A stretch of 64,000 nucleotides of DNA, taken from the NCBI GenBank assembly GCA_003402315.1, contig QFXI01000023.1, forward strand, positions 1 to 64,000. The letters run 5' to 3'. The stretch comes from Candidatus Nitrotoga sp. LAW (lineage in GTDB: Bacteria > Pseudomonadota > Gammaproteobacteria > Burkholderiales > Gallionellaceae). The translations under genes and the position numbers were made by a program. Shown piece by piece: positions 46,608 through 63,973 of this stretch; positions within the stretch are counted from its first letter, which is position 1, and every line of letters begins with the position of its first letter. Under the pieces are notes generated by a model. It was not told where the DNA came from and searched no databases. It was given only the letters and a program-made list of their open reading frames with translations.

Positions 46608-47126
46608 ATGCATTTAAACAACACTGAATTTCCCCACTTAATTAAGTTCTTGGTAGTTTCCACAATTTCTTTTTTTTTCGGTGCAATGCATGGCATGTTG
46701 CAGGTAATTCCATCCATACGAGCCTGGCTGGATTCTATTGGTAGCCCTTACGGTGGCCCTGGGCACATGATAGATCCCCTGGCACATGCACACATAAACT
46801 TAATCGGAGGGCTAGTAATATTAGCAATGGGAACCATGTATTATTTGTTGCCCATTATTAGCGGAAAGACAATCTACTCTTTGCGCTTGATAAATCACTC
46901 GTTTTGGTGGACAACAATAGGGGTGTTTTATTTTTATACTACGCAAGTGGTATTTGGCATATTGGAAGGAAATTTATTACTAGACAATAATCTACAAGCC
47001 ATGGCACAAGTACACCGCTTTTATGGACCCATCGTAGCCAGTGCAGGAATGATCATGGCGACAGGTTTTTGCATCTATCTTGCTAACGTCTTATTCACAC
47101 TTAAAAATAAAGACCGGAATCCTTAA
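46608..47126 (+). CDS. Stand-alone C-terminal domain of heme-copper oxidase subunit I (first copy)
   Basis: A 172-residue protein with four membrane segments. The segment DPLAHAHINLIGGLVILAMG (His60 and His62) followed by YYLLPIISGKTIYSLRLINH matches the helix IX/X region of C-family subunit I; compare HAHLALLGFST and LYSLTLGNLHFW in the oxidase at 57789-59198. The HxH pair in a full oxidase ligates both hemes. The upstream helices with the copper ligands and catalytic Tyr are absent, so it cannot be an oxidase by itself. It might bind one heme or pair with another subunit. It resembles the gene at 63461-63973 at the other flank of the locus. Confidence 0.75.
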   Translation: MHLNNTEFPHLIKFLVVSTISFFFGAMHGMLQVIPSIRAWLDSIGSPYGGPGHMIDPLAHAHINLIGGLVILAMGTMYYLLPIISGKTIYSLRLINHSFWWTTIGVFYFYTTQVVFGILEGNLLLDNNLQAMAQVHRFYGPIVASAGMIMATGFCIYLANVLFTLKNKDRNP

Positions 47127-47139
47127 GAGCTGTTTATTG

Positions 47140-47568
47140 CTAAGGCGATAAATTCAACGGAAAGCGCAGAACCCCTTCAACGCCGTTGCGTTTCATCTGC
47201 ACCTGTAACACGGACCTAGTTCCTGGAGCCACTTTCGCCGCCCTGCGGTAAACACCTACTTCCCCATCTTGTATTGCCTGTATCCATTGGTCTTGGTCGT
47301 CAGTGCGCACCGAAACCATAACATCATGAATCGGCCCACGTTTACCAGTCACTATCACCAAAAACTCGTTCACCCCAGGACGCGGTGGGCTGGGCCTGGA
47401 TTCGACTCGTACCTCCGCATCCTGCCATTTTTGCGGTTGCGTATCAGCAACTCGGTCTCCACCACATGCTACTAATAGCACCAAAAAAAATAGCTTAATG
47501 TGTTTTACGTTTGTGCTCCGCAGTAAGTTAACCGCGGGATACAAATTATTTTTCTGCATTGAGTTCAT
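47140..47568 (-). CDS. FixH/YtkA-like lipoprotein
   Basis: About 142 residues from the ATG at 47568, which overlaps the end of the preceding gene. After a basic start there is a hydrophobic stretch with a lipobox (FFLVLLVACGG), then a beta-sandwich-type domain: RPSPPRPGVNEFLVIVTGKR, GPIHDVMVSVRTDD, VLQVQMKRNGVEGVLRFPLN. The pattern 'GxNxFxVxVxxxxGPxxDVxVxV' resembles the FixH/YtkA domain found in cbb3-oxidase assembly and copper proteins. Last of four genes with ccoG, which supports an assembly role. The family call is tentative. Confidence 0.6.
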   Translation of the reverse strand: MNSMQKNNLYPAVNLLRSTNVKHIKLFFLVLLVACGGDRVADTQPQKWQDAEVRVESRPSPPRPGVNEFLVIVTGKRGPIHDVMVSVRTDDQDQWIQAIQDGEVGVYRRAAKVAPGTRSVLQVQMKRNGVEGVLRFPLNLSP

Positions 47569-47977
47569 GGGATTGTTCTTTATTATTTTTGTCTGAATCC
47601 AACGTACCGCCAATCGACGATCCATATAGATTAACCATGAACCGAACAAAAGCACTTCCGGCTGCAACATAAAACAAAGCAATGATGAACCCCCAGTCTA
47701 CCCAAGGGCGCTCATCACCCGGGCGGAGACCCCAAAAAGGGAAACTCAAACCTACCGCAACCAGTAACACCGCAACAGTCACTCCTATAAACCAATAGGG
47801 TATTTTTTTTTGCGATTCCGGAATGGTTTCTACCAGCTCCCAATCTTCAAGCCCGCGTTTAGCCATACGTTCTTCATCAGAAGCATAGCCAAAACAATCG
47901 TCCGGCTTCTCGCCCCAGCGCGGCTCATCTACTTTCGATAAACCTTGAGCTTTTTCACCAATATCGCTAGCGATCAT
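47546..47977 (-). CDS. Membrane protein with PFWGLRP motif, paralogue of the 56106-56771 product
   Basis: A 143-residue protein: hydrophilic N-terminal half (DEPRWGEKPDDCFGYASDEE, GLEDWELVETIPESQKKIPY), then two membrane helices. The core WFIGVTVAVLLVAVGLSFPF then WGLRP, then WVDWGFIIALFYVA, parallels TTIPLWGQRP and WWDKGYTIDLFYLTMFFLGV in the 221-residue protein of the main oxidase operon. No heme motif or known family. It overlaps ccoG by 4 nt. Probably a membrane subunit or assembly protein of this oxidase system (inference). Confidence 0.65.
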   Translation of the reverse strand: MIASDIGEKAQGLSKVDEPRWGEKPDDCFGYASDEERMAKRGLEDWELVETIPESQKKIPYWFIGVTVAVLLVAVGLSFPFWGLRPGDERPWVDWGFIIALFYVAAGSAFVRFMVNLYGSSIGGTLDSDKNNKEQSHELNAEK

Positions 47978-49314
47978 AGCTTCCTCCTTTGTTCAGAAAA
48001 ATGTTGAACAGGGAATCGCCCCATCCAGGTGTCACCTGCAGAAACTTCCACCACAACAGAATATAACCCTCGTGGCAAATCCTGCGCGATGGAGAGCATA
48101 AGCGATTCTCGCCCGATTGGTGATAATTTAATATCCTTGGCGCTAAGCTGGTAACTACCCGGTGGCAAACCTAACACACGCACATGTAACTCCGCTGAAC
48201 GGTACAATTTATTGGAAAGTGCAATGCGATATTCTTGAACCGTGCGACCTTGCTGGATATCCGCATTGCCCACTGCTACATGATAAGGTTGATATGACCA
48301 CAATCCCCAAATAAACATCACCGCACCCAGTACTACGAAAGGAGTCGTCCAGCCCATTCGAGCAAACAAAGAAATTGCGATGCCACGAAATTTATTTAGA
48401 TTTTTATTCGTGCGTTCAAGCATATCAAAACGTAATAGCCCAGGGACTCCTTGCTTTTTATGCAAGCGATTGCAAGCGTCAACGCAATCGCCACAATTAA
48501 TACAACTGTCATAAATATCAGTTTTGCGCGGATCCAAATCGATAAAGCAAGAAGTAACACAATAATTACACTTAGCGCATTCACCGCTGCGACTGGCATC
48601 GTATGCTATATGCAAAGTCTGCTTGGTTTTAAACGAATGCATCCAAACTCTGTAAATACAGGCGTAGCGGCACCAGAAATGTCTTATTAACGCAATATCT
48701 ATGAAAATGATCACGACACATACCGCGTAAATCCAATGTAGCGATCCCGCCAACTTGGTATTTTCTTGCAGTGTTACAAAAGACCACACCACACTTGGCG
48801 GATAGAAATAAAATAATGGGATTAGCGCAAAAAACATAGCCGCCCCCAAAAATGCAACCCCAAGCAGCATCCAATTCACAATTTTATTCTTGGCCCCTGC
48901 CACGCGCGGCGCTTCACCAGTTAAACTTACTTCAGCATGCTTACCTAATAGTTTGCGTGTGAGATTGTTAGCCCACTCGGCCATACTATTTTGAGGGCAA
49001 ACCCAACCACAAAACACAGTACCTGCTGTCGAGTACAGTAACACCAAACTACTCGCCAAAAAAAGCCATGCCCCGGTTACCAAGGCAAAATCAGCCAACC
49101 ATATCTGCCGATCAAGCACAACAAAAGCAGCCGCACCTGGATCGATTCGGAATAAGCCACTAGCCGGAATTAGTACAACAAGGATCAGGGTCAGCATCTG
49201 CACTAACCGCCGCTTCCAACGGAATTCAGAATGAGCAGGTTTGGAGCCTACAGCCGTGCCGATAACCTTGACCGGGATACTCGAAATGGATTTATATTTG
49301 ACGCCGCTGGCCAT
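47974..49314 (-). CDS. ccoG: Cytochrome oxidase accessory protein CcoG (FixG-type ferredoxin)
   Basis: A 446-residue membrane iron-sulfur protein with about five membrane helices. Motifs: VFCGWCPQNSMAEWANNLTR, FWCRYACIYRVW, and two ferredoxin clusters CAKCNYCVTSCFIDLDPRKT and CINCGDCVDACNRLHKKQG. The C-terminal Ig-like FixG domain spans about residues 340-446 (ELHVRVLGLPPGSYQLSAKD). CcoG is proposed to reduce copper during assembly of the CuB site of cbb3 oxidases. Follows the aminopropyltransferase-like gene after 9 nt. Confidence 0.9.
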   Translation of the reverse strand: MASGVKYKSISSIPVKVIGTAVGSKPAHSEFRWKRRLVQMLTLILVVLIPASGLFRIDPGAAAFVVLDRQIWLADFALVTGAWLFLASSLVLLYSTAGTVFCGWVCPQNSMAEWANNLTRKLLGKHAEVSLTGEAPRVAGAKNKIVNWMLLGVAFLGAAMFFALIPLFYFYPPSVVWSFVTLQENTKLAGSLHWIYAVCVVIIFIDIALIRHFWCRYACIYRVWMHSFKTKQTLHIAYDASRSGECAKCNYCVTSCFIDLDPRKTDIYDSCINCGDCVDACNRLHKKQGVPGLLRFDMLERTNKNLNKFRGIAISLFARMGWTTPFVVLGAVMFIWGLWSYQPYHVAVGNADIQQGRTVQEYRIALSNKLYRSAELHVRVLGLPPGSYQLSAKDIKLSPIGRESLMLSIAQDLPRGLYSVVVEVSAGDTWMGRFPVQHFSEQRRKL

Positions 49315-49323
49315 AATGTTAAG

Positions 49324-51939
49324 TTAATTCCCCGTCGCATTTGCTTCACGGTCAAGCGGACTCAGCTCCAGCAAGTGCACACGGCTAATTTCCGCATGAG
49401 CATCACCGGCATTTCGCTCAATTCGCCACAATGCACGCACCGCCTCTACGTGATATGGATTAAGACGCAAAATTTTCTGCAACGCCTCTTTCTCACTCAA
49501 ACCATGCTCGCGCGCCTGCGCTAAAGATGAAAACATATTATCAGCCAACGCATAAGCAATCCAGCGATCTTTTGCATTCGCCTTATAAGCCAAGTGCGTC
49601 AACTGGTTAGCCTGTTGCGTTGCGCCACGCGCGGCCGCAAGCCAGCTACGCGTCATCAACTCGCTTGCTACGTAGGCGCGTTCAAAAGCATCTTTATCAT
49701 TGTCACGAATGCCAAGCAAATTTGCAGCGGCTTCCATTTTCGGTCTGGTTCTCAGCAAAAACTGCAATAACTTTGCCACGTCTAATTCACCAGCGTAGCG
49801 CGCGCGTGGCAGACGAAACTCAATCACTGGCGACCACTCATCTTGCACCTGCTCCCGACTAGTCGGCAACGGCCCCCAATAGCGCCCCAACCAAGTCCAC
49901 TCCCCCTCACCTGCAGTCACCTCATCCTGTTGCCCCAAGGGCATACGCTGCAAATTATGCAGCAACCCCTGCGCACCCATAAACTTCTGTCGTGGACCAA
50001 CCAAGGCTAAATGCATTCCATCAAGAAATATTTGCGCTTCTGGAAAAATCAGCCGAAAGCTATTAAAAATTACGTTTAAAGATTTATGGTCAAATTGATT
50101 AAGCGCCAACCACTGAACAAATAGTCCGTTTTCACTTAGGCGATTACGCACGCGCTGAAATTGTTGCACTGATAATAAAGAGCTTGAGCCTGCCAAATCC
50201 GGATGAAACACGTCGCCGATTATGACGTCATACTGATCCCGACTCGCGCTTAAGAAATGCCGCACGTCGTCACGTTCCACTTTGGTTTGACGCAGAACGT
50301 TGCGATTTAATGGGGCAAACCAGCTCGCTGCGGAATTAATCGCGCCTTGTGACAATTCAACAGCACTACGCTCTAAATCAGGAAATGCCAGGGAGCCAGC
50401 CACGGAAATTCCGGTACCCAACCCAAGAAATAGTACCGAGCGAGGCTGTTCATGCAAGAGCAATGGAAGACGCGCTTGATTGGACTGCACGAACACCGCT
50501 GTAGGATCAGTTGAAGCATCCATTCTCTGCAAATCGGTCAGCAACACACGCTGCCCGTCTTGCTGCTCCACCACATGGGTCATCGAAATGGCGTCTTCAT
50601 AAAAATATAAGTCCTTGCTCCCCGTTTGCGCCTGCGGTAATAACATATTGACTGGCGGCAACTTTACAACTGGCCACGCTACCATTAAAAAAAACGGTAC
50701 AGCAAGCCATGCGGTACGCGACTGAGTCCAAGTTAAACCCAAAATTAACAACGCCGAAGCTGCCACCACCACCGTAGCAGCGCTGCCCCAAACCGGAATC
50801 AGTACCACTCCCGCAACTACCGCGCCGAGTGCGGCACCCAGTGAGTTAGCTCCATATAACCACACCCCTCCACCATTCGAGCGGCTGTTTAGTAAAGGCA
50901 ACCACGCTCCAAGCGCCAGTGTAACTGGCAAAGTTACCAGCGCGAGAAGTAACCCTTGCATTCTCAATGCTTCAAATAAAGAAGCAAACTCAGCTCGCTC
51001 CACCCATGCCGAAAGCGCAGGAAGCAACCATAAACTTAATATGGTGAATCCTCCAGCAGCAATGGGCAAGATTACAAACCACGCTTGTCTGTGCTGGCGC
51101 GGCGCGATCAAGCTGCCTATACCAATACCTAACAGAAATGACGCCAGAATCACTGTCAGCACATACTCGGTACGTAGCATCACCATGCCGAACAAGCGCG
51201 TCCAAGCTATTTGCAAGACCAGACTTGCCGCACCAATTCCAGCATAGGCGAGCAGAAAAGCTAAACGAGGTCGATTTGCCCTAACACTTTTCTCGGTAAC
51301 CTGTACTGTGGCGTACCGCGATGAAAGCAGCAACAGCGCAATAACTCCAACACAGCCAATCGCGGCAACCACTCTAACCGCCCAGACCCAGCCCAAAGCC
51401 GGGAGCAACCAAAGTGGTAACAATGCGCCGCAAGCAGCACCTAGCGTGTTTAAACCGTAAATTTTCCCCAGTTGCTCCGGCCTATTTCCCAGGGATGCTA
51501 AAATTAATGGAAACCCTGCCCCCATGATGAAAGCCGGGAACAACAGTAAACACAATGCGACACTAGCAATAAGACCATACCATTGAAATAGCGAAAGTTG
51601 AGCCGCCGCGCCTTCCATTCCCGCCGAGGTCATTTGCAGAATCAAAGGCAAGAGTAAAGCGTAAATAGCAATACCCCCCTCCAATGCAGCAAGCAACAAC
51701 AAAGGCCTTTTGATTTGGGAAGCCCAGCGTACCGCAAACAAACTGCCCGCTCCCAGCCCCCCCATAAATGCGGCAACTGTCAGCACCACCGCAAAAATAC
51801 TCACGCCGAATTGCAAAGAAAGTATACGCGTCCACAACACCTCATATGCCACGCTAGTTAGACCAAATAATCCATATAGCGCTGCCAGCAGCCAATAACT
51901 ACGCTTTGAAATTATTGATTGTGACTCTTCCACTAGCAT
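49324..51939 (-). CDS. Fused membrane transporter-like / spermidine synthase-like protein
   Basis: An 871-residue protein. The N-terminal 440 residues have about twelve membrane helices in two related blocks (LLAALYGLFGLTSVAYEVLW and LLAYAGIGAASLVLQIAWTR both start a block). The middle is a spermidine-synthase-type SAM/dcSAM-binding fold: LFLGLGTGISVAGSLAFPDL, ERDDVRHFLSASRDQYDVII, then GDVFHPDLAGSSSLLSVQQF. The C-terminus (about residues 690-871) is helical and TPR-like. Such fusions are widespread and their substrate is unknown. Its position directly before ccoG is unusual. Confidence 0.8.
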   Translation of the reverse strand: MLVEESQSIISKRSYWLLAALYGLFGLTSVAYEVLWTRILSLQFGVSIFAVVLTVAAFMGGLGAGSLFAVRWASQIKRPLLLLAALEGGIAIYALLLPLILQMTSAGMEGAAAQLSLFQWYGLIASVALCLLLFPAFIMGAGFPLILASLGNRPEQLGKIYGLNTLGAACGALLPLWLLPALGWVWAVRVVAAIGCVGVIALLLLSSRYATVQVTEKSVRANRPRLAFLLAYAGIGAASLVLQIAWTRLFGMVMLRTEYVLTVILASFLLGIGIGSLIAPRQHRQAWFVILPIAAGGFTILSLWLLPALSAWVERAEFASLFEALRMQGLLLALVTLPVTLALGAWLPLLNSRSNGGGVWLYGANSLGAALGAVVAGVVLIPVWGSAATVVVAASALLILGLTWTQSRTAWLAVPFFLMVAWPVVKLPPVNMLLPQAQTGSKDLYFYEDAISMTHVVEQQDGQRVLLTDLQRMDASTDPTAVFVQSNQARLPLLLHEQPRSVLFLGLGTGISVAGSLAFPDLERSAVELSQGAINSAASWFAPLNRNVLRQTKVERDDVRHFLSASRDQYDVIIGDVFHPDLAGSSSLLSVQQFQRVRNRLSENGLFVQWLALNQFDHKSLNVIFNSFRLIFPEAQIFLDGMHLALVGPRQKFMGAQGLLHNLQRMPLGQQDEVTAGEGEWTWLGRYWGPLPTSREQVQDEWSPVIEFRLPRARYAGELDVAKLLQFLLRTRPKMEAAANLLGIRDNDKDAFERAYVASELMTRSWLAAARGATQQANQLTHLAYKANAKDRWIAYALADNMFSSLAQAREHGLSEKEALQKILRLNPYHVEAVRALWRIERNAGDAHAEISRVHLLELSPLDREANATGN

Positions 51940-52562: not shown

Positions 52563-52952
52563 TTAAAAAGGATAAAACCAAATAACGCCCACAATAGCAT
52601 GTACAAAAGCCAACGTGACAGTAAGTCCGGCAGAAATCATATGCAACACAAATACTTGTTTACCATATATTCCCATAGCAATGCCCAATGCCCCAGTAAT
52701 TAAAAGCAAGACTAATAAAGGCACACCCAATAAAAACATAGTTAAATGCTTTTTTTGTATAGTTGAAGGCCTATCTATTTTAATTTGGCTGGCTTGCTGT
52801 TCAAATGCCTCCATCACCCTAGTGCTATCGCCCTGCTGAACGTTATCATCAGCATGCACAGTTGGTATAACACAAAATAAAAACAACATCGCTGTAATCA
52901 GCCAGCACGCTATTAAATTTGGGTAGTAAATACCCCTTACACTCGCCATCAT
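52563..52952 (-). CDS. Small membrane protein, end of the oxidase operon
   Basis: A 129-residue protein with an N-terminal signal or anchor (LIACWLITAMLFLFCVIPTV, then HADD), a hydrophilic segment and two membrane helices (MFLLGVPLLVLLLITGALGI and ISAGLTVTLAFVHAIVGVIW). His residues in FVLHMISAG and AFVHAIVG lie within the last helices and could bind heme or metal, but nothing proves it. It overlaps the 84-residue gene by 4 nt. Family not recognised. Confidence 0.65.
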   Translation of the reverse strand: MMASVRGIYYPNLIACWLITAMLFLFCVIPTVHADDNVQQGDSTRVMEAFEQQASQIKIDRPSTIQKKHLTMFLLGVPLLVLLLITGALGIAMGIYGKQVFVLHMISAGLTVTLAFVHAIVGVIWFYPF

Positions 52953-53203
52953 TTCTCACTCTCGACTGAAATTATCTGTTGCTCTTCCTGAGCAGCTTTG
53001 TTTTCCGCATAATGCCATGTCAACACCGCCATCAAAATAAAGGGAACAAAAAGAACACCCAGCAGAAATAAAAAAATAAACCAGAGCGTATCAATATGCA
53101 CGTGAAGAAAGCGATAACTATCCACTGCATAACTCATTTTCACCAAAGACAATGAGAAACCCAGAACCATTCCCAAGTGCCGCAACATCTTAAGCACTTT
53201 CAC
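52949..53203 (-). CDS. Small two-helix membrane protein
   Basis: An 84-residue protein with two hydrophobic segments (LGMVLGFSLSLVKMSYAVDS and IDTLWFIFLFLLGVLFVPFI then LMAVLTWHYAENK). The first may be a signal peptide. No known family. It overlaps both neighbours by 4 nt, so it is translationally coupled to the SUMF1-domain gene and to the 129-residue gene. Confidence 0.65.
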   Translation of the reverse strand: MKVLKMLRHLGMVLGFSLSLVKMSYAVDSYRFLHVHIDTLWFIFLFLLGVLFVPFILMAVLTWHYAENKAAQEEQQIISVESEK

Positions 53204-54264
53204 TCTTTTTTGCCCGTTACGTTGGAATTATTTGCACAGCGAAATCCAAAAAAATCGGAAGCATAATTTGCAAAAGCAAAATTTCGATGAAAGACTGCGG
53301 AAGAAAAAGGATCCCCCTTCCATGAACCACCACGCAACACCTTGTAGCTCCCCCCAGTTGGCACGATATCAAATTCTTTTTTATTCGTTGCCCGCACAAT
53401 TTTCCCTTTAAACAAATCTGACGGCGCGTCAGATCCAGGGTAAGGCGCAAAATCATCGGCTGTCCACTCATTCACGTTACCCGCCATATCCATTACTCCA
53501 TATGGACTAACACCATTCGGATAAGCATTTACGTTGGTTGTAGAACCAACATTATAATAAGTATTCAACCGCTCCGGTTCCATCTTATTACCCCACGGCC
53601 AGCGCCTACCATCTGCTCCGCGACCGGATTTTTCCCATTCCGCTTCAGAAGGAAGTCGCTTGCCTGCCCACTTGGCGTAAGCTGTTGCATCATACCAAGA
53701 CACCATAGTAACGGGGCGCAATATTTCACCTTGAGGAATCTTGCCTTTTTTCCAGTTCAGCGGTGGACGATGTGAAGTAGCGGTTACAAACTTAGCGTAT
53801 TGCGCATTAGTTACAGGATATTTGTCTATCCAAAAAGCGGGTAATTTAACTGTATGCTGCGGACGATTTTGTACATCTGCACGTTCTAAATCTGTACCCA
53901 TCGCAAAAACTCCCTCAGGGATTAAAACCATACTGTCTATTTCAAGCCATTCCTCTTTGGAGAGCAAGCTTTCAATTTCTATGGCACTATATCCTGCCGC
54001 ATGATTTTTTTCAGCCTCATGCACACTATGCAACACTAAATCTTCACCCGCAGCGCGTATGTGGGATAATTCATCTTTCAATTCATAAGTTGCGCGCGTG
54101 CGCATTTCACCCATACGTTCGAATCCCTGATCCACCACATACAAGGTAATACCAATCGCTAACAAAACCAAACAAATTACAAAAGTAGCCGACAAATAAC
54201 GTTTGCGGCGTGCATAATCTACAGCAGAATGTACAGTTTTTCTGTTTGCAGAAGTAACTGTCAT
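53200..54264 (-). CDS. Membrane-anchored SUMF1/FGE-domain protein lacking the formylglycine Cys
   Basis: A 354-residue protein: one membrane anchor (about residues 24-46, LSATFVICLVLLAIGITLYV) then a periplasmic SUMF1 domain (about 95-345). Signatures: LIPEGVFAMGTDLERADVQN, FWIDKYPVTNAQYAKFV, VSWYDATAYAKWAGKRLPSE, WPWGN, YGVMDMAGNVNEWTADDF and the C-terminal FFGFRCA. In true formylglycine-generating enzymes the segment after RGGS carries the active Cys (GGSYMC or GGSFLC); here it is RGGSWKGDPFSS with no Cys. So it is a non-catalytic or differently acting SUMF1-like protein, comparable to NirV beside nitrite reductases. Overlaps the next gene by 4 nt. Confidence 0.85.
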   Translation of the reverse strand: MTVTSANRKTVHSAVDYARRKRYLSATFVICLVLLAIGITLYVVDQGFERMGEMRTRATYELKDELSHIRAAGEDLVLHSVHEAEKNHAAGYSAIEIESLLSKEEWLEIDSMVLIPEGVFAMGTDLERADVQNRPQHTVKLPAFWIDKYPVTNAQYAKFVTATSHRPPLNWKKGKIPQGEILRPVTMVSWYDATAYAKWAGKRLPSEAEWEKSGRGADGRRWPWGNKMEPERLNTYYNVGSTTNVNAYPNGVSPYGVMDMAGNVNEWTADDFAPYPGSDAPSDLFKGKIVRATNKKEFDIVPTGGSYKVLRGGSWKGDPFSSAVFHRNFAFANYASDFFGFRCANNSNVTGKKE

Positions 54265-54735
54265 CTAAATATCACTTTCTCTGTTGTCAGAACGTTGCTT
54301 ATATAAAAAAGCTCGCGGACTTCTTCCGTAAGTTCCTTTCACCATGATTTCACCCATGACCCCGCCGAATGCCGCCGCAGTCATAACTACAGTCACAAAC
54401 AAAGCCCACATACCAAAAGGAATTAGCGATGCATTTTCCGGAATTCCACTTAAATAAACGCTATCCAGATAACTAACCAATTTAACTATTAATGGCGGGA
54501 AATAACACAGCCATTTACCGCCAAGTCCAAAAATAACAGCAACCAATACACCCACAAAAAAAGGGAGCGCCAACATATCTATGACCCACAAGCTATTAAA
54601 ATCAAGAATGCCGCGAAATAACTCGATTTTTACTCCAAGTAAACGGTCACCGAAATAGTTCAATACACAACCCATGGTGACTGCCACTACCCCGCTAAAA
54701 AATCGAGCTCTGGTCAAGGGTGGCAATTTGCTCAT
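54265..54735 (-). CDS. Four-helix membrane protein of the oxidase operon
   Basis: A 156-residue protein with about four membrane helices (FFSGVVAVTMGCVLNYFG, VIDMLALPFFVGVLVAVIFG, CYFPPLIVKLVSYLD, FGMWALFVTVVMTAAAFGGV) and a basic C-terminal tail. No heme motif or known family. It starts within the end of the cytochrome gene and ends one base before the SUMF1 gene, so it is embedded in the operon. Confidence 0.65.
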   Translation of the reverse strand: MSKLPPLTRARFFSGVVAVTMGCVLNYFGDRLLGVKIELFRGILDFNSLWVIDMLALPFFVGVLVAVIFGLGGKWLCYFPPLIVKLVSYLDSVYLSGIPENASLIPFGMWALFVTVVMTAAAFGGVMGEIMVKGTYGRSPRAFLYKQRSDNRESDI

Positions 54736-55220
54736 GGGCGGTACTCGTGACCAGTAAGCATCTCATGCTCAGCTTTACGCGTTTCTTCTAAATACCAATC
54801 TTTCACCTTTAAGCTTGCCATATAGCGTGCTAGAAGTCTCCGCTCATTTTCCGGTAGTTGCGCATAAGATGGCATTTGATATTCTTTTTTTAAGCGGGAT
54901 GGCAATATTGCCTGAGGATTGCTAGCTGAAAAATATTGATAAAACCAGTCTTCACTTCGCAAAGAACCCATACCGTCCAATATTGGGGCTGGGACGGCTT
55001 TAATAAGATCACGCACCGTCCACAATGAATGGCAACTTTTACAATTTTGCTGGCGATATATATCTGTAGCAGCGCGCTCTAGGGTAGCAGATGCAGTGCT
55101 GAAATAAGGAATACCTTTATCGACTTCCTGAATAGTATTGAGGTGCCATAGATTACGCCCCATAAAACCTATAACCACAATTGCAATCACTACAAAAACA
55201 ATTTTTTCGCCTGATTTCAT
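54732..55220 (-). CDS. Membrane-anchored monoheme cytochrome c
   Basis: A 162-residue protein with an N-terminal anchor (IVFVVIAIVVIGFMGRNLW) and one class I heme domain. The heme site is NCKSCHSLWTVRDL (about residues 59-72) and the likely axial Met is in KKEYQMPSYAQLPENERRLL. It is CcoO/CcoP-like in topology but has only one heme, unlike the diheme CcoP of canonical cbb3 oxidases. Overlaps the CcoS-like gene by 4 nt. Probable electron entry subunit or transfer partner of the oxidase. Confidence 0.85.
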   Translation of the reverse strand: MKSGEKIVFVVIAIVVIGFMGRNLWHLNTIQEVDKGIPYFSTASATLERAATDIYRQQNCKSCHSLWTVRDLIKAVPAPILDGMGSLRSEDWFYQYFSASNPQAILPSRLKKEYQMPSYAQLPENERRLLARYMASLKVKDWYLEETRKAEHEMLTGHEYRP

Positions 55221-55495
55221 TGGTCCTGTTGCTTTTCTTTTTCCTGACGCTTTAATACACGCTCCCGGCTTTGTATCTGTGCGGCAACCACTTCGCGACT
55301 TTTAGCATATTCCTGAGGGGACATTTTTTCTTTGTCGCCCTCATCAAATACTAGGTACTTGATATCTTCATCGAATTGCTCATTCTTCACTCCCCATCTA
55401 ATCCAAAAGATGACCGCAATAATTATCATCCCTCCAACAATAAGCCAAAGGTAGATAGACCATCCATCATCCAACGATTGCAAGTAGTTTTCCAT
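55217..55495 (-). CDS. ccoS: CcoS-like oxidase assembly protein with a C-terminal extension
   Basis: A 92-residue protein: one membrane helix (WSIYLWLIVGGMIIIAVIFW) followed by RWGVKNEQFDEDIKYLVFDE. CcoS proteins share the pattern W-x-V-K/R-x-G/N-Q-F-D-D...I-L-F-D-E/D just after their single helix, which fits here. CcoS is needed for cofactor insertion into cbb3 oxidase. Usual CcoS is 45-65 residues; the extra 40 are a charged coiled-coil-like tail (AKSREVVAAQIQSRERVLKR). Confidence 0.65.
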   Translation of the reverse strand: MENYLQSLDDGWSIYLWLIVGGMIIIAVIFWIRWGVKNEQFDEDIKYLVFDEGDKEKMSPQEYAKSREVVAAQIQSRERVLKRQEKEKQQDQ

Positions 55496-55537
55496 GTTTT
55501 CTCCGTCGATCGTTAGATAACCATCCTAGTAGACAAC

Positions 55538-55858
55538 CTAGAAAAGATTTCCGCCCAGCATTTGCAATCCACCAAAAATGACTGCAACAACGATACCTGT
55601 AATTATCAGACCAAACATAACTTTCTCACCAAATCTCATTTTTTTTGGCGCATGGCTCCCAAATATCACCATGTATACAATACCTGAAAACACCAACACT
55701 CCCAACAACATAAAAAAAAACACACCAGTACTAAATTGCTGGCTACGCATCCCTTCTATGCTTAGGTCTAACTTCGGTGAATATGCTGTGTTAGCTAACA
55801 CATTTAAAACACTACCTATATTCAGGCTTTCAAGAAATGAATAAATAATTATCTCCAT
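55538..55858 (-). CDS. Small two-helix membrane protein
   Basis: A 106-residue protein with a hydrophilic N-terminal 40 residues and two helices (TGVFFFMLLGVLVFSGIVYM then VIFGSHAPKKMRF, and MFGLIITGIVVAVIFGGLQM). Not recognised. It is the first gene after the internal terminator at 55888-55912, so it may open a second, weaker transcription unit. Confidence 0.6.
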   Translation of the reverse strand: MEIIIYSFLESLNIGSVLNVLANTAYSPKLDLSIEGMRSQQFSTGVFFFMLLGVLVFSGIVYMVIFGSHAPKKMRFGEKVMFGLIITGIVVAVIFGGLQMLGGNLF

Positions 55859-55887
55859 TCATTCCAAATAAATTCTTGTAAAAAAGA

Positions 55888-55912
55888 GTATGCCGCCCTT
55901 ACGGCGGCATAC
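55888..55912 (-). terminator. Internal terminator in the oxidase operon (minus strand)
   Basis: On the minus strand: GTATGCCGCC, loop GTAAG, GGCGGCATAC, then TCTTTTTT. A perfect 10-bp GC-rich stem with a T-run, placed between the 44-residue gene and the 106-residue gene. It would end or attenuate transcripts of the structural genes before the accessory genes. Confidence 0.9.
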
Positions 55913-55940
55913 CTTGTAAACTAAGTTTGCAACCAGCAGT

Positions 55941-56075
55941 TTAGGATTTATTTGACCTTATTTGAGGACTTTTTTTATCGTAGTTATCTACAAAGAAGCT
56001 ATAAAAAAATGGAGCCAGAAATCCAATCGCCACTACTACCGCAAAACAAGCAGGTCCATAATCGAAATCTATCAT
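55941..56075 (-). CDS. 44-residue single-helix membrane protein
   Basis: ATG at 56075 with a strong AGGAGGC 7 nt upstream. The protein has one helix (PACFAVVVAIGFLAPFFYSF, about residues 8-27) and a charged tail (VDNYDKKSPQIRS). Its place after the subunit I, CcoO-like and 221-residue genes, and its size, suggest a CcoQ-like small subunit, but there is no sequence proof. Confidence 0.7.
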   Translation of the reverse strand: MIDFDYGPACFAVVVAIGFLAPFFYSFFVDNYDKKSPQIRSNKS

Positions 56076-56105
56076 TTGATGCCTCCTGAATGTAGTTATT
56101 ATAAA

Positions 56106-56771
56106 TTAAACGTTATGCCTTCTATCACCATGACGAGGATCACTATCGTGATGACGAGGCTGCCAATGATAAGGCGGTAACCGTTTCACAGTAATTGTCA
56201 CACCAAGAAAAAACATCGTCAGATAAAATAGATCAATCGTATACCCCTTATCCCACCAAGGCTGTTGACGCTCTCGTTTACCATTCGGACGATAATTGCC
56301 CTCAAAATTAGCAATTTTCACCTCTGGCCCCACAACAGTGTAATCCTTAAGATCCACATCTGGAAGCTTCATTATCTCCTCAATTTGAGGTTTGATAACA
56401 CGCAGGTCATTCATACTCACCGGATGCCGTCCCTGCTGAGCCTTAAATGGGCTATCTTTATTAATTTCAACAATTCGTTTCATTGCCGCATCGTCACCCT
56501 GAGTTTCTTGTATCGACTGAATTTCAGGAGTGTCCATAGCTTTAATATAGTCAGCGTAAATAGCAGCTGTTGGACGCTGTCCCCAAAGAGGGATGGTAGT
56601 CAGGAATGCCGTTGCGACCGTTAATAAAACAAGAACAACAACAGGTACAGGCAAACGATTGTTATCTTCCGTCATCCCACCAAGATCTTCAGCCTCCCAT
56701 AGCTGTTTGGATCGAGCTACAGTATCTTCATGCGTCAAAGTTACCAACGGTTCATTAAATACCCAAGGCAT
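56106..56771 (-). CDS. Two-helix membrane protein with PLWGQRP motif (oxidase operon, third structural gene)
   Basis: A 221-residue protein. Hydrophilic N-terminus (WVFNEPLVTLTHEDTVARSK), membrane helix (PVPVVVLVLLTVATAFLTTI), the motif PLWGQRP, an exposed domain of about 110 residues, WWDKGYTIDLFYLTMFFLGV as second helix, and a His-rich tail (YHWQPRHHDSDPRHGDRRHN). In canonical cbb3 operons this position holds diheme CcoP, but there is no CxxCH here. The 143-residue protein at 47546-47977 has the same motifs without the middle domain. Function unknown; a structural subunit is likely. Confidence 0.7.
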   Translation of the reverse strand: MPWVFNEPLVTLTHEDTVARSKQLWEAEDLGGMTEDNNRLPVPVVVLVLLTVATAFLTTIPLWGQRPTAAIYADYIKAMDTPEIQSIQETQGDDAAMKRIVEINKDSPFKAQQGRHPVSMNDLRVIKPQIEEIMKLPDVDLKDYTVVGPEVKIANFEGNYRPNGKRERQQPWWDKGYTIDLFYLTMFFLGVTITVKRLPPYHWQPRHHDSDPRHGDRRHNV

Positions 56772-56789
56772 ATTATCGTCCCCCTTAAA

Positions 56790-57752
56790 TTATTTCAGGT
56801 TTATAACAAAATCAATTAAATTTCGAATCTCGCTATCTTTAGCATACATGGGCACATCAGGAGGAGTAGTAATTTTACCTTCCCGATACTCATCATACTC
56901 AGAACGCCATTTTTTGAAATCAATTTTTTTGCCATCAGCGTCAACCTCGCCCCATAAATAATCAAAACGCGGCATAATGGAATGCGGTTGCACTAAACGT
57001 GGATTAAAGAAATGCAGCATCATCCACTCTCTCGACGCATTACGTGATCCAACATGTAATAAGTCTGGTCCTTTGCGGTCAGATCCAAATGCTGTCGGAG
57101 ACTCCCCATTAAAATCGCCTAGCATAGGAGGCGCCCCAAACACTTGCCAATCTTGCGTTTGTTCAGGCAACAATGTATGGCACCACCAACAACCCTCTCG
57201 TACAAACATGGTTTTTCCAGCGCCAGCATGTAATATATCCGAATCTGCGGCTTGCTTTAAAACCTCATCTGGAGTCCAGCCTTTCGTAGCTGTCGCATTC
57301 TCCATATACGAAAGCGGCTTATCCTCAAAAGTCAGCAATTGATCACTCTTTTTAATCAAAAAGACAGCACCGCTTTCCTTTCTTGCTTCCGTTATACGAC
57401 CTTGTTTAACACTAAGCTCCTCAACGCCCTTACCCAAGTTCGCAGTATGGGTCACCCCATTCGGCAATGACGTCCCCGCTGGGTATACATAGGCGTACAC
57501 TGGCTCCATTGGCTCACCACTTTTCGGATCTTTCCTGACCAGCACTTTCAATGGCTTATTCAAACCATTCAACAATGGATCTGCAAGCTGCCAGCCTGAA
57601 TCCCACCCTGAAGTCAACTGCTTGTCCAAACCAACCTCAGAGCTGATTGAAGCTGCAAGATCGAAGCTTGGGAAAAACAAGGTTATGCTCATTGACAGTC
57701 CAAATGCAACTCCAAACGCTCTGGAACCAATCCTATACTCTCTAAAATTCAT
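56790..57752 (-). CDS. ccoO: CcoO-like monoheme cytochrome c subunit
   Basis: A 320-residue protein with an N-terminal anchor or signal (AFGVAFGLSMSITLFFPSFD), a long insertion of about 160 residues, and then a CcoO-type heme domain: FVREGCWWCHTLLPEQTQDW, SDRKGPDLLHVGSR, EWMMLHFFNPRLVQPHSIMP, where the Met is the axial ligand. This order matches CcoO (FixO). In canonical CcoO the heme domain comes soon after the anchor, so the insertion is unusual. It follows the subunit I gene after 36 nt. Confidence 0.85.
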   Translation of the reverse strand: MNFREYRIGSRAFGVAFGLSMSITLFFPSFDLAASISSEVGLDKQLTSGWDSGWQLADPLLNGLNKPLKVLVRKDPKSGEPMEPVYAYVYPAGTSLPNGVTHTANLGKGVEELSVKQGRITEARKESGAVFLIKKSDQLLTFEDKPLSYMENATATKGWTPDEVLKQAADSDILHAGAGKTMFVREGCWWCHTLLPEQTQDWQVFGAPPMLGDFNGESPTAFGSDRKGPDLLHVGSRNASREWMMLHFFNPRLVQPHSIMPRFDYLWGEVDADGKKIDFKKWRSEYDEYREGKITTPPDVPMYAKDSEIRNLIDFVINLK

Positions 57753-57788
57753 TATTTTCTCCCCAGATCCTAGCTTAAAGTTTTAAGT

Positions 57789-59198
57789 TTAACGTTCGTA
57801 GGCCAATTCATGTGGCATACGTCCAGCCGGGATAACAGTGCCTTCACGCGCAGTCATCCACATGTTGTATAGCCAAAGAATGGTTGAAGAAAATACCATA
57901 GTCCCACCCAACCAACGGGCGATCATATAAGGATGCTCAGCAATCACGACATCAATGTATGGCACTTCATAAATTTTACCTGCACCCTGAATTAGCCCGG
58001 CAATCGTCATTGATACCCAATAAGTACTGAATCCAATCAACAACAACCAGAAATGCAGATTTCCCAACGTCAACGAGTACAGCTTGCGTTTCATCAATGT
58101 TTGCAGACCAAGATATACGGCTGCGGCCTCAAGAAACGTCGAGAACCCCAACAAAGCAAGATGCGCATGCGCCACCATCCAACCTGTACCATGAATGTAC
58201 CAGTTGATTGAGCGCGTTTGCTGAAAGCCACCCTGCATATTGAGCGGAATGGCCAGCAATACACCAACCACGGTAAAACGCACTTCAAGATTCTCGACAA
58301 ACATGTTCCACTTACCCTGCATGGTCAAGAGTATGTTTGACACAAATGCAATCGCTGGCACCAGAATCAGAACACCTTCCACTGAAGCAAAGGATTTTAA
58401 CCACTCAGGCAAGGGAGCCGACATTAAATGATGCGCGGCAGGCGTTGAATAAAACACAACAATCGACCAAAAGTGCAAATGCCCTATACGGTGAGAATAC
58501 AATGGATTACCAGTCACCTTTGGAATAACATAATAGGCAATCGCTGCAGCAACGGGAGTAATCCACAACCCCAAAACGTTATGTGCAAACCACCACGTCA
58601 TGTAAGCCTCGGTCAAACCAGTAAGATGAAAATACTCTGGCAGGTTTCCAACCAAAAATACGATAATCAACATGAACGTTGATGCCGCAAAAAACCAGTT
58701 AGTCGTATAGATTCCCTGGGTGCGACGTTTTATTATAGTCATCCATACATTAACCGCCAAAGGAATCGTTATAAATGCAGCGACAGCAAGATCCAGCGGC
58801 CACGGGAAGTCAGAGTATTCACGCCCAGAGGTCACTCCCATCCACAACAAAGTCAACCCCAAAGCCAGGGCAACATTCCACATCATGCAATTCCACAAAC
58901 CAAGCTTCTCTGACCACAACCTTGTGTTCCCCAGTATCGGGGTGATATACATCATGGCCATTGCAAACGCCATCGAAATCCAGCCAAAGATTACCGCCAG
59001 CACATGCACCTGACGCATATGACCAAAGGCAAACATTTCTGTTCCCGTTACAAAGTCAGGGAAAGCAAGCTTAGCAGCATTAAACGACCCCAACCCGGTT
59101 CCGATCATAAACCAAATAATGGCAGAAAAACCGAAGAAAATCGCCGCCGAACCGACCGGGATAGCCTCATTTTTAGCAAACAAATACTTAAGAATCAT
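57789..59198 (-). CDS. ccoN: C-family (cbb3-like) heme-copper oxidase subunit I
   Basis: A 469-residue membrane protein with about twelve helices. Ligands by position: His65 (RQVHVLAVIF, low-spin heme b), His206 (WWFAHN, CuB), Tyr250 (HFWSIVVFY, at the spacing of the cross-linked catalytic Tyr in cbb3), His256 and His257 (PAAHHL, CuB), His344 and His346 (VAHAHLALLGF, heme b3 and heme b). The Tyr argues for oxygen reduction and against an NO reductase. Around the site it differs from ordinary CcoN (YSTPAAHH against YIWAGPHH; HAH against HVH), so it is a divergent branch. Central gene of the locus, likely a proton-pumping terminal oxidase. Confidence 0.88.
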   Translation of the reverse strand: MILKYLFAKNEAIPVGSAAIFFGFSAIIWFMIGTGLGSFNAAKLAFPDFVTGTEMFAFGHMRQVHVLAVIFGWISMAFAMAMMYITPILGNTRLWSEKLGLWNCMMWNVALALGLTLLWMGVTSGREYSDFPWPLDLAVAAFITIPLAVNVWMTIIKRRTQGIYTTNWFFAASTFMLIIVFLVGNLPEYFHLTGLTEAYMTWWFAHNVLGLWITPVAAAIAYYVIPKVTGNPLYSHRIGHLHFWSIVVFYSTPAAHHLMSAPLPEWLKSFASVEGVLILVPAIAFVSNILLTMQGKWNMFVENLEVRFTVVGVLLAIPLNMQGGFQQTRSINWYIHGTGWMVAHAHLALLGFSTFLEAAAVYLGLQTLMKRKLYSLTLGNLHFWLLLIGFSTYWVSMTIAGLIQGAGKIYEVPYIDVVIAEHPYMIARWLGGTMVFSSTILWLYNMWMTAREGTVIPAGRMPHELAYER

Positions 59199-59276
59199 GC
59201 TGCATCTCCTTTTTTAGCTCTAGGCAGACGAAACGGCTGCCACTACTAGCCTTAATTCCACTATAATTTTAAAGGG

Positions 59277-59480
59277 TTATTTTTTTGACGATCTATGCGG
59301 AGCCACCGAAGCCATCTCTTCTTTAACTATATCGCTCACTGAACCGCCCACTACCTCACCCAACGTATCAGTACCATCCGCCAAGTGAATACGTTTGTGC
59401 GGCATCAATACATACCACGACAACCACATACTAGAAAATGCCAAAAGCAAGCAACACGTTCCCGCTATTATTGGAAGCAT
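59277..59480 (-). CDS. 67-residue single-helix membrane protein
   Basis: A 67-residue protein: N-terminal helix (LPIIAGTCCLLLAFSSMWLS then WYVLM) and a soluble tail (HLADGTDTLGEVVGGSVSDI, ending PHRSSKK). GGAGG-type ribosome site precedes the ATG. It lies 78 nt before the subunit I gene. Family not recognised. Confidence 0.6.
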   Translation of the reverse strand: MLPIIAGTCCLLLAFSSMWLSWYVLMPHKRIHLADGTDTLGEVVGGSVSDIVKEEMASVAPHRSSKK

Positions 59481-59542
59481 GTTTTTCCTCCTTAACTTAA
59501 AGTTGCCAGATTTTAATTAGTTTAAACAAAACAACTCACGAC

Positions 59543-59824
59543 TTAAGCATGACGCGCATTTTCAATTGCATCATGGCGTGTCAAGCCGAGCGCCAGCATC
59601 AACATAAATACAAAGCCAAACGCAAGCATCCAGAACGTCATAAACCCATTAAATGTCGTAGGTATATACGAACCAGCACCGTAACCACCCCAATCTTCAA
59701 ATCCTGCTCGCCCCATCCAACACATCAAGGCAGCCCCAAACACGCTACCATTACCCATGCCCGTTACAAATCCCGCAACTAAAGTAATCCAAAAGGATTT
59801 AGATTGTATCGACTGTTTTTGCAT
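59543..59824 (-). CDS. Small two-helix membrane protein, first gene of the oxidase operon
   Basis: A 93-residue protein with two hydrophobic segments (FWITLVAGFVTGMGNGSVFG and FMTFWMLAFGFVFMLMLALG) joined by a Gly-rich loop (RAGFEDWGGYGAGSYIPTTF). GGGGGAAT precedes the ATG. First gene downstream of a very good promoter. Not recognised. Confidence 0.6.
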   Translation of the reverse strand: MQKQSIQSKSFWITLVAGFVTGMGNGSVFGAALMCWMGRAGFEDWGGYGAGSYIPTTFNGFMTFWMLAFGFVFMLMLALGLTRHDAIENARHA

Positions 59825-62924: not shown

Positions 62925-63464
62925 TCAACCCGCGCGACTTTCTGTTCCTGCCTTCAGAATTTTCGTAATTCCCGCTTCCATTTCACCATGCAACATGCGT
63001 CCTGGTTGAACACCGCTAACGACACCTTTATCATTTATAAAGAAAGTCCAGGGATCACCCATCACACGATATGCTTTGAATGCTTGCGGATTTTGATATT
63101 GATCCATATGCAAAAAAAGTACCTGGGTTTGATATTTTTCCATTAGTGCTTTCAATATTTGCAACTGACCATCACACACAGTGCAATGGCCAGGTGTAGC
63201 AAACTCCAAGACAATAGGCTTACCTAGCGCCAACGCTTTATCTAAAGAGTATTGGTACATGCGTGCATCTGGCTGACGATATGTCGTCATTTTGCTCATG
63301 TCTCCACCGACATCTGCCAATGTTTTGGTGGGCAAACTAGGTGCAAGCATACCCTTCTGCAGCATTCCCATTGAAGCCCCACCTATACTCCATGCAGAAA
63401 ACTGCTCACCGCAACCACTAACAAGGCCGATGGTAACAAAAAGCCATAATATTCTTATTTTCAC
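62925..63464 (-). CDS. Thioredoxin-fold lipoprotein
   Basis: About 179 residues from a GTG at 63464 that overlaps the stop of the preceding gene (GTGA); an ATG at 63479 would add five residues. Signal peptide with lipobox (FVTIGLVSGCGEQ), then a thioredoxin-like domain with the redox motif ATPGHCTVCDGQ and YRVMGDPWTFFINDKGVV, which contains the cis-Pro region. It acts in the periplasm, anchored by lipid, as a disulfide reductase or a copper/heme-delivery thioredoxin. Next to the stand-alone oxidase-domain gene, so an assembly role is likely (inference). Confidence 0.75.
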   Translation of the reverse strand: MKIRILWLFVTIGLVSGCGEQFSAWSIGGASMGMLQKGMLAPSLPTKTLADVGGDMSKMTTYRQPDARMYQYSLDKALALGKPIVLEFATPGHCTVCDGQLQILKALMEKYQTQVLFLHMDQYQNPQAFKAYRVMGDPWTFFINDKGVVSGVQPGRMLHGEMEAGITKILKAGTESRAG

Positions 63465-63973
63465 TTGGACCGGTTCCATCCATTACAAGTGCGGTATATA
63501 TTATATCCCCAGATAATGTTAGCCAGCAAAACCACGCTACCGAAAATTCCTGCAAGTGACATAAATCGTGATGCCGCCAGTTCTCCATCGTCATCAATAA
63601 AAATACCAACCAACCCTGCAGCACTAAAGAAAACGACGACCCCCAGCAAACCAAGGTTGTGCATCCAGAAGTGAACTTTGACCAAACGCAAACTGTAAAT
63701 GGAACGACGCACCAATCGTGGTATCAGATAATATACCGCGCCAAAAATAGCCATTTCTACCCACCCTAACAAATTAATATGCGTATGTCCTAAGACGATT
63801 CTATGGCCGGGAATCCCGCTATTAACAAAATGTCTGAAGGTGGGAACACCGCCCATCAATGCCCCCCAGGAAAAACCAATTATGCTGTAAATAATGCATG
63901 CATAAATAAACCACAATGTATATTTGGTATACTCTTTATCCTGAGCCCAAGGCTCATTTAATTCCTGCATCAT
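63461..63973 (-). CDS. Stand-alone C-terminal domain of heme-copper oxidase subunit I (second copy)
   Basis: A 170-residue protein with about four helices. Key segment VLGHTHINLLGWVEMAIFGA (His63 and His65) then VYYLIPRLVRRSIYSLRLVK and VHFWMHNLGLLGVVVFFSAA. This is again the HxH helix and following helices of C-family or NorB-type subunit I, without the copper ligands. It is closer to NorB/CcoN (GHTHINLLGW) than the copy at 46608-47126. It begins a unit with the thioredoxin-like lipoprotein, overlapping it by GTGA. Start ATG at 63973, 28 bases from the window end, so its upstream control is mostly outside. Confidence 0.78.
   Translation of the reverse strand: MMQELNEPWAQDKEYTKYTLWFIYACIIYSIIGFSWGALMGGVPTFRHFVNSGIPGHRIVLGHTHINLLGWVEMAIFGAVYYLIPRLVRRSIYSLRLVKVHFWMHNLGLLGVVVFFSAAGLVGIFIDDDGELAASRFMSLAGIFGSVVLLANIIWGYNIYRTCNGWNRSK

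Follow-up and report, generated by a model that had tools for sequence, protein, structure and literature searches.

A Predicted Divergent C-Family Terminal Oxidase of Candidatus Nitrotoga With a Probable Heme-Free CcoP Anchor

The window analyzed here covers the opening 64,000 bases of contig QFXI01000023.1 (160,911 bp) from the genome of Candidatus Nitrotoga sp. LAW (2.81 Mb, completeness rating 100%) and carries, between positions 59824 and 52563, an oxidase cluster of twelve open reading frames (ORFs), all on the minus strand. Our analysis suggests that the terminal O2 reductase of this Candidatus Nitrotoga belongs to a deep clade of the C-family, related to the cbb3 oxidases, in which CcoP would persist as a heme-free anchor and electrons would be taken in through single-heme proteins, a reading to which we assign a probability of about 0.7. 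A first-pass annotation made from the letters alone had placed a divergent C-family oxidase operon at exactly these coordinates. Read in the direction of transcription, the genes are s1, s2, a CcoN-like subunit I, a CcoO-like subunit, a protein with a PLWGQRP motif, s4, s5, a 162-aa monoheme cytochrome, s7, an FGE-domain protein, s9 and s10, where the s-numbers denote small proteins. Between 55495 and 52563 five adjacent ORF pairs abut or share 4 bases (55217/55220, 54732/54735, 54264/54265, 53200/53203 and 52949/52952), which points to an operon-like arrangement.

Catalytic Subunit I

The 469-aa subunit I (57789..59198, minus strand) matches PF00115 with 261 bits and retains the heme ligands His65, His344 and His346, the CuB ligands His206, His256 and His257, and the cross-linking Tyr250. 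All 16 rows of its clade share these residues, in agreement with what had been read from the single sequence, and the Tyr lies on a different helix from the His ligands, as in C-family heme-copper O2 reductases. In a tree of 58 rows, 16 divergent rows including this protein formed a clade with 100/100 support within the C-family (37 rows, 99/96), while 18 ordinary CcoN formed another and 11 rows resembling nitric oxide reductases (NOR) and 10 A/B-family rows stood separate. The phylogenetic check that the first-pass annotation had proposed thus places subunit I with CcoN, outside the ordinary CcoN clade and apart from the NOR-like rows; in line with this placement, its score against the TIGR00780 ccoN model is 226.9 bits (cut-off 583.15). 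The tree, in which the program flagged long branches, was built from the window protein, nine named loci and 48 of the 65 heme-copper oxidase ORFs that were found. The 17 omitted ORFs belonged mostly to the A-family and also included L228, L229, L176 and the duplicate L208; L220 to L223 were outside the reach of the profile model and were not used, and the labels 'NOR', 'AB', 'oddC', 'Zeta', 'Siderox' and 'ES1like' in the tree were assigned in the present analysis.

A residue table revealed 58 fixed differences between the 16 divergent rows and the 18 ordinary CcoN. They include, in the numbering of Protein Data Bank (PDB) entry 3mk7, Ser240 to Gly and Glu323 to Gln, at positions which we take to belong to the K-path for protons, as well as Ile/Val241 to His. 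Another odd C-family group with subunit I frames of 540-565 aa (L177, L178, L237 and L238) seems to lie near the divergent clade in the tree, and two of its members, L177 and L178, also carry Gln at the Glu323 position.

A scan of the genome with PF00115 returned a single full-length gene besides two short 'half' proteins, and neither cytochrome bd subunit I (PF01654) nor an ordinary ccoNOQP operon was found in this genome. The cluster therefore appears, as judged from the gene content, to encode the only terminal oxidase of this Nitrotoga, and no candidate was found in the genome for the circumstance that had been named as fatal to the original prediction, an ordinary ccoNOQP operon as the only one expressed.

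Candidate Electron-Entry Subunits

The CcoO-like subunit (56790..57752, minus strand; 320 aa, heme motif CWWCH) was present in 76 of 76 loci and contains the monoheme domain of canonical CcoO (PF02433, 66.3 bits, residues 178-269), although its score against TIGR00781 is 68.4 bits and under the cut-off of 200.65. Position 52 of the FixO profile pairs with residue 178, so that approximately 126 extra residues precede the heme motif; the large insertion noticed in the single sequence is thus real, and a long pre-heme region recurs in all 15 aligned CcoO-like rows. The AlphaFold model of this subunit has a mean pLDDT of 60.6; blocks within residues 61-170 reach 71-96, but most of the heme domain lies below 40. 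A known electron-carrier fold for the insertion was considered and discarded, as Foldseek against the PDB returned nothing at E<=0.001.

The second membrane-bound monoheme cytochrome that had been described downstream is encoded at 54732..55220 (minus strand) and is a candidate electron-entry subunit of 162 aa with one transmembrane-like stretch and one CXXCH motif. It scores 25.4 bits against PF00034, over the cut-off, and 25.9 bits against PF02433, under the cut-off.

The CcoP Position

The place of CcoP is held by the PLWGQRP protein (56106..56771, minus strand; 221 aa; 73 of 73 loci), which contains no CXXCH motif, as the first-pass annotation had recognized, and hence cannot be a diheme CcoP of the canonical kind. 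However, several lines of evidence suggest that it is probably CcoP reduced to its N-terminal anchor. When diverse relatives were scanned one by one with PF14715 (FixP_N), 16 of 19 matched at E<=1 (best 1.3e-4), a resemblance that emerges only in such single scans. The thresholds of our Pfam scans differed, at 0.01 for FixS against s5, 1 for FixP_N against the PLWGQRP protein and 0.1 for the other small proteins. A CcoP-anchor model of our own was built from the pre-heme anchor of 10 ordinary CcoP and applied with one threshold to every gene family. At E<=1e-3 this model recovered 39 of 77 PLWGQRP ORFs (72 of 77 at E<=0.01), compared with 7 of 54 ORFs of the related PFWG family, 2 of 72 s5 ORFs and 8 of 4872 background ORFs, and none for s1, s2, s4, s7, s9, s10, CcoO or the 162-aa cytochrome. 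Moreover, hhalign pairs Glu35, invariant in the aligned PLWGQRP rows, with Glu49 of the 3mk7 CcoP, and all 10 ordinary CcoP rows have an acidic residue (Glu or Asp) at this position. The structure model of the PLWGQRP protein has a mean pLDDT of 76.2. The claim of an operon without a diheme CcoP consequently holds for the hemes, but 'without CcoP' is not quite right because the cluster seems to encode an N-terminal anchor of the CcoP type.

Conservation of the Gene Set

Among 80 named loci, which are the best 80 of the 154 relatives, the gene set is found almost throughout wherever the DNA extends that far, and these loci come from several proteobacterial families. In counting a gene, we took as the denominator the loci whose DNA was long enough on the respective side, and the recurrence is more than chance. 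The 162-aa cytochrome follows downstream in 67 of 70 loci, with the other 3 carrying the gene on the opposite strand, and most of the missing genes trace to three rearranged loci (L090, L093 and L099) in which s5 and the cytochrome are on the opposite strand. Subunit I is 95-100% identical to that of nine named loci, eight from Candidatus Nitrotoga (MKT, HW29, CP45 with two, 1052, SPKER, M5 and fabula) and one from a Gallionellales metagenome-assembled genome.

At the genus level, 14 of 19 genomes contain a full subunit I gene and one a fragment at a contig end. At the family level, 45 of 158 genomes match over at least 400 residues and one more contains a fragment; at the class level, 30 of 369 genomes have a full-length member (912-1036 bits) and one more has it in two pieces (G595). 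The only intermediate in the class scored 645 bits (G597) and the next score was 264, so that the clade is sharply separated. A similar gap was found at the phylum level, where 39 of 398 genomes match at more than 780 bits and three more with long fragments, while the next full-length match scored 253. No subunit I relative was found in viral contigs.

A FixP_N family search of the 19 genus genomes gave 1 match only, the ordinary CcoP of genome G010, and no relic. This genome (83% complete; locus L162) has an ordinary ccoNO and a diheme CcoP that carries FixP_N. The divergent cluster was not found in it, which may reflect either a replacement or an assembly gap.

The intermediate of G597, a single sister locus (L236), encodes an s1-like protein, CcoN, an s4-like and a CcoS-like protein, two monoheme cytochromes, a thioredoxin-like and an s9-like protein and half-oxidase genes, as well as a further upstream frame with two CXXCH motifs. 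Its CcoO-like frame of 179 residues does not have the large insertion, and a heme-free protein of 114 residues aligns in hhalign with both the PLWGQRP (P 5.5e-8) and the PFWGLRP family (1.3e-7). Although it is one locus only, this combination suggests that CcoP may have lost its hemes before CcoO acquired the insertion and before FGE, s7 and s10 joined the cluster.

Small Membrane Proteins and Neighboring Genes

The first-pass annotation had counted at least eight small membrane proteins of no known family in the cluster. Eight small membrane proteins exist (93, 67, 221, 106, 92, 156, 84 and 129 aa, in gene order), but the 221-aa PLWGQRP protein is related to FixP_N and the 92-aa s5 to FixS/CcoS, while the remaining six gave no convincing family in Pfam scans. 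All six are encoded on the minus strand: s1 (59543..59824), which adjoins CcoN in 72 of the 73 loci whose upstream DNA is long enough; s2 (59277..59480; 65 of 73 loci), which has about 30 residues in most aligned relatives; s4 (55538..55858; 72 of 72); s7 (54265..54735; 63 of 69); s9 (52949..53203; 60 of 63), with His34 invariant in 18 of 18 aligned rows; and s10 (52563..52952; 59 of 62). The family alignments (A1-A13) consist of 10-20 hand-picked rows each. As to s5 (55217..55495, minus strand; 69 of 72 loci), 15 of 19 relatives match PF03597 (FixS/CcoS) at E<=0.01, with a best value of 6.6e-5 and the window member below the curated cut-off, which argues for a CcoS/FixS-like protein. In s10, His104 and His118 are invariant in 16 of 16 rows and lie at an interval of 14 residues within a single predicted membrane helix, a spacing that presumably resembles that of the heme-binding helices of cytochrome b, and s10 may bind heme as a dimer; its profile gave chance-level matches only against the PDB.

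The membrane-anchored FGE/SUMF-domain protein (53200..54264, minus strand; 354 aa; PF03781, 192.8 bits) occurs in 63 of 66 loci. A Cys pair, which we assume to be a feature of active FGE, was not seen by eye, and the protein may have a structural or an assembly function.

The cluster continues past 52563 to about 47546 on the minus strand. After s10 follow an 871-aa membrane protein with a spermidine-synthase-like domain (49324..51939; PF01564, 29.7 bits), which is conserved in the oxidase cluster (57 of 60 loci), a polyferredoxin named CcoG/FixG-like by resemblance (47974..49314; Fer4_18 and Fer4_5 over the cut-off; 52 of 56) and a second heme-free protein with a PFWGLRP motif (47546..47977; 51 of 56), which is related to the PLWGQRP family with an hhalign probability of 90%. 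A 'FixH-like' label for 47140-47682 was based on resemblance by eye only and was dropped after Pfam returned nothing at E<=0.01.

Upstream lies a partner block common to many loci, with raw counts over the 80 loci of 61 for a diheme c, 60 for a monoheme c, 52 for a thioredoxin-like and 52 for a 148-aa protein. In the window this block contributes the thioredoxin-like, lipoprotein-like protein (62925..63479, minus strand; PF13192 over the cut-off), and the monoheme c and diheme c genes are located just beyond the window end, next to a 170-aa half heme-copper protein (63461..63973, minus strand; PF00115, 54.4 bits, profile 300-406). This protein and a second one of similar size (46608-47126, plus strand) retain just the C-terminal portion of COX1, including its HxH motif. 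Relatives of the two are neighbors of the oxidase cluster at many loci, sister locus L236 among them, and often the half oxidase lies between genes of the upstream partner block.

Discussion

This kind of oxidase is already in print as cbb3. Genome papers, cited here for their passages on these clusters, use this name and separate proximal from distal forms (PMC10734462, PMC8788666), so that the distinct oxidase type with its own subunit set that had been proposed from the sequence stands as regards its position outside the 18 ordinary CcoN and its conserved gene set, but not as a newly discovered kind. Our contribution consists of the probable heme-free anchor of CcoP and its acidic residue, the fixed changes in the K-path, the CcoS-like assignment of s5 and the conserved gene inventory. 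Neither the heme-free anchor nor the full inventory was found in literature passages on these clusters, in a search that left supplements and most subscription journals outside its scope, and a search for oxidases lacking CcoP turned up one paper, on Rhodobacter, while another search gave, by title, none on the present cluster.

One alternative, for which we see roughly even odds, is that the enzyme is merely a divergent cbb3, the 'distal' form of the iron-oxidizer literature, in which a nearby c-type cytochrome stands in for CcoP and no new mechanism is involved. Subunit I indeed falls within the same C family, co-localized cytochromes have been proposed to replace the missing subunit III of clusters called cbb3, as in Ferrovum JA12 (PMC4725956), and genome G140 contains just a divergent CcoN and one ordinary CcoN, as reported for Sideroxydans lithotrophicus ES-1 (PMC8788666). 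However, the subunit set is conserved and yet different, the anchor of CcoP has apparently been retained apart from the hemes, and the 58 fixed differences extend to the K-path. Reduction of NO instead of O2 by subunit I is highly improbable, despite a distant NorB match (4xyd, E 1.8e-5). Gly210 and Thr214 are kept as in CcoN, whereas NOR-like rows have Glu in 11 of 11 and 10 of 11 cases, respectively, and Tyr250 is replaced by Thr, Ser or Ala in all 11 of those rows; we rejected the nitric oxide reductase reading on these residues and on the separate position in the tree. A silent or relic cluster is equally hard to credit, given that the subunit I copies listed at 84% identity or above have no internal stop, that the gene set is conserved across loci and that no other full-length oxidase was found in the genome.

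It is unlikely, though less remote, that the PLWGQRP protein is unrelated to CcoP and owes its FixP_N likeness to a fortuitous match of one membrane helix. Several observations point that way and weigh against our reading. The FixP_N match spans only about 43 residues, and Pfam gave nothing for the PLWGQRP protein of the window itself. Alignment of the family with whole ordinary CcoP in hhalign was weak (P 6e-4, probability 28%), though the right segment was aligned, and the bridging heme-free protein of G597 taken alone did not match ordinary CcoP (P 0.1). Foldseek against the PDB returned nothing at E<=0.001 for the models of both CcoO and the PLWGQRP protein. At E<=1e-3 the anchor model also picks two s5 ORFs, one ORF of the 148-aa upstream protein (up148) and one monoheme-c ORF, and the threshold of the seven control Pfam scans (0.1) was stricter than that used for the PLWGQRP protein (1). 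The location of CcoP Glu49 at the K-channel entrance is, in addition, our assumption. With a single threshold throughout, however, PLWGQRP ORFs match far more often than background ORFs, the gene occupies the position of that for CcoP, and the bridging protein does align with the PLWGQRP family. A further reservation concerns the distribution of the cluster. No copy was detected in four of the 19 genus genomes, one with an ordinary CcoN instead (G010) and three without any match (G004, G011 and G016), and cytochrome bd genes were reported in 15.4% of nitrite-oxidizing Gallionellaceae (PMC10734462), which together indicate that not all members depend on this cluster as their only oxidase.

Compared with canonical cbb3 encoded by ccoNOQP (Pseudomonas stutzeri, PDB 3mk7), the Nitrotoga enzyme shares the fold family of subunit I, the heme and CuB ligands, the Tyr on a separate helix, the CcoO heme domain and CcoS-like and CcoG-like genes. 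It differs in a subunit I identity of only about 30%, in having a probable heme-free anchor in place of a diheme CcoP, and in the CcoO insertion, the second monoheme subunit, the extra small proteins and the altered K-path positions. The nitric oxide reductase cNOR belongs to the same heme-copper superfamily, but has no cross-link Tyr and forms a separate clade. By description alone, the cluster may be likened to the 'distal' cbb3 (a term of Ducluzeau 2008), a second cbb3 cluster with other subunits in the same organisms (PMC8788666, PMC7029218, PMC10734462). A cbb3 oxidase has been predicted for N. fabula (PMC6050957), Gallionellaceae mostly have proximal or distal ccoN (PMC10734462), two cbb3 forms occur in Zetaproteobacteria (PMC7029218), and ccoNOP has been reported for Mariprofundus (PMC3179512). 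The gene order of the Nitrotoga cluster is the same in other Gallionellaceae and in Ferrovum myxofaciens P3G (L116). For Ferrovum JA12 the passage on its cbb3 reports subunit III as missing and does not mention a heme-free CcoP anchor (PMC4725956). Likewise comparable by description is 'Complex IV-2' of Ca. Tenderia electrophaga, a non-ccoNOPQ oxidase among the most expressed genes, and the syntenic regions of Tenderia and Mariprofundus encode the diheme c4 Cyc1 and a polyferredoxin (PMC5371394).

In this Candidatus Nitrotoga, electrons from nitrite oxidation would pass to c-type cytochromes of the periplasm, for which the diheme and monoheme proteins encoded just upstream are possible candidates, and from there to the 162-aa cytochrome, the heme c of CcoO or both. 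Heme b would receive them next, and O2 would be reduced at the heme b3-CuB site. A 1169-aa frame elsewhere in the genome, with weak likeness to NarG and a score under the cut-off, would fit a nitrite oxidoreductase. The reason for keeping the CcoP anchor would be an acidic residue that it contributes at the entrance of the K-type proton channel; the electron-relay function of CcoP would have passed to single-heme proteins. More tentatively, and with a probability somewhat below even, the cluster could represent a separate C-family architecture in which the functions of CcoP are split between a heme-free anchor for proton entry and an intake through single-heme subunits and an enlarged CcoO, joined by about six small subunits of unknown role, suited to donors of high potential such as nitrite or Fe(II) and spread as a conserved cluster among lithotrophic Proteobacteria. 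A tie to Fe(II) is opposed by ES-1, which has both cbb3 clusters, unlike in their subunits. Its distal cluster, possibly of the present type, is expressed about three times more and is upregulated on thiosulfate, while the proximal one is upregulated on Fe(II)-citrate (PMC8788666).

If our reading is true, the description of the Nitrotoga oxidase as a high-affinity, proton-pumping cbb3 (PMC6050957) extrapolates from an enzyme with another electron-entry module and other K-path residues. A natural oxidase that has kept the CcoP anchor without its hemes would then provide a means to test the purpose of that anchor, and six conserved membrane proteins of unknown role would become tied to respiration.

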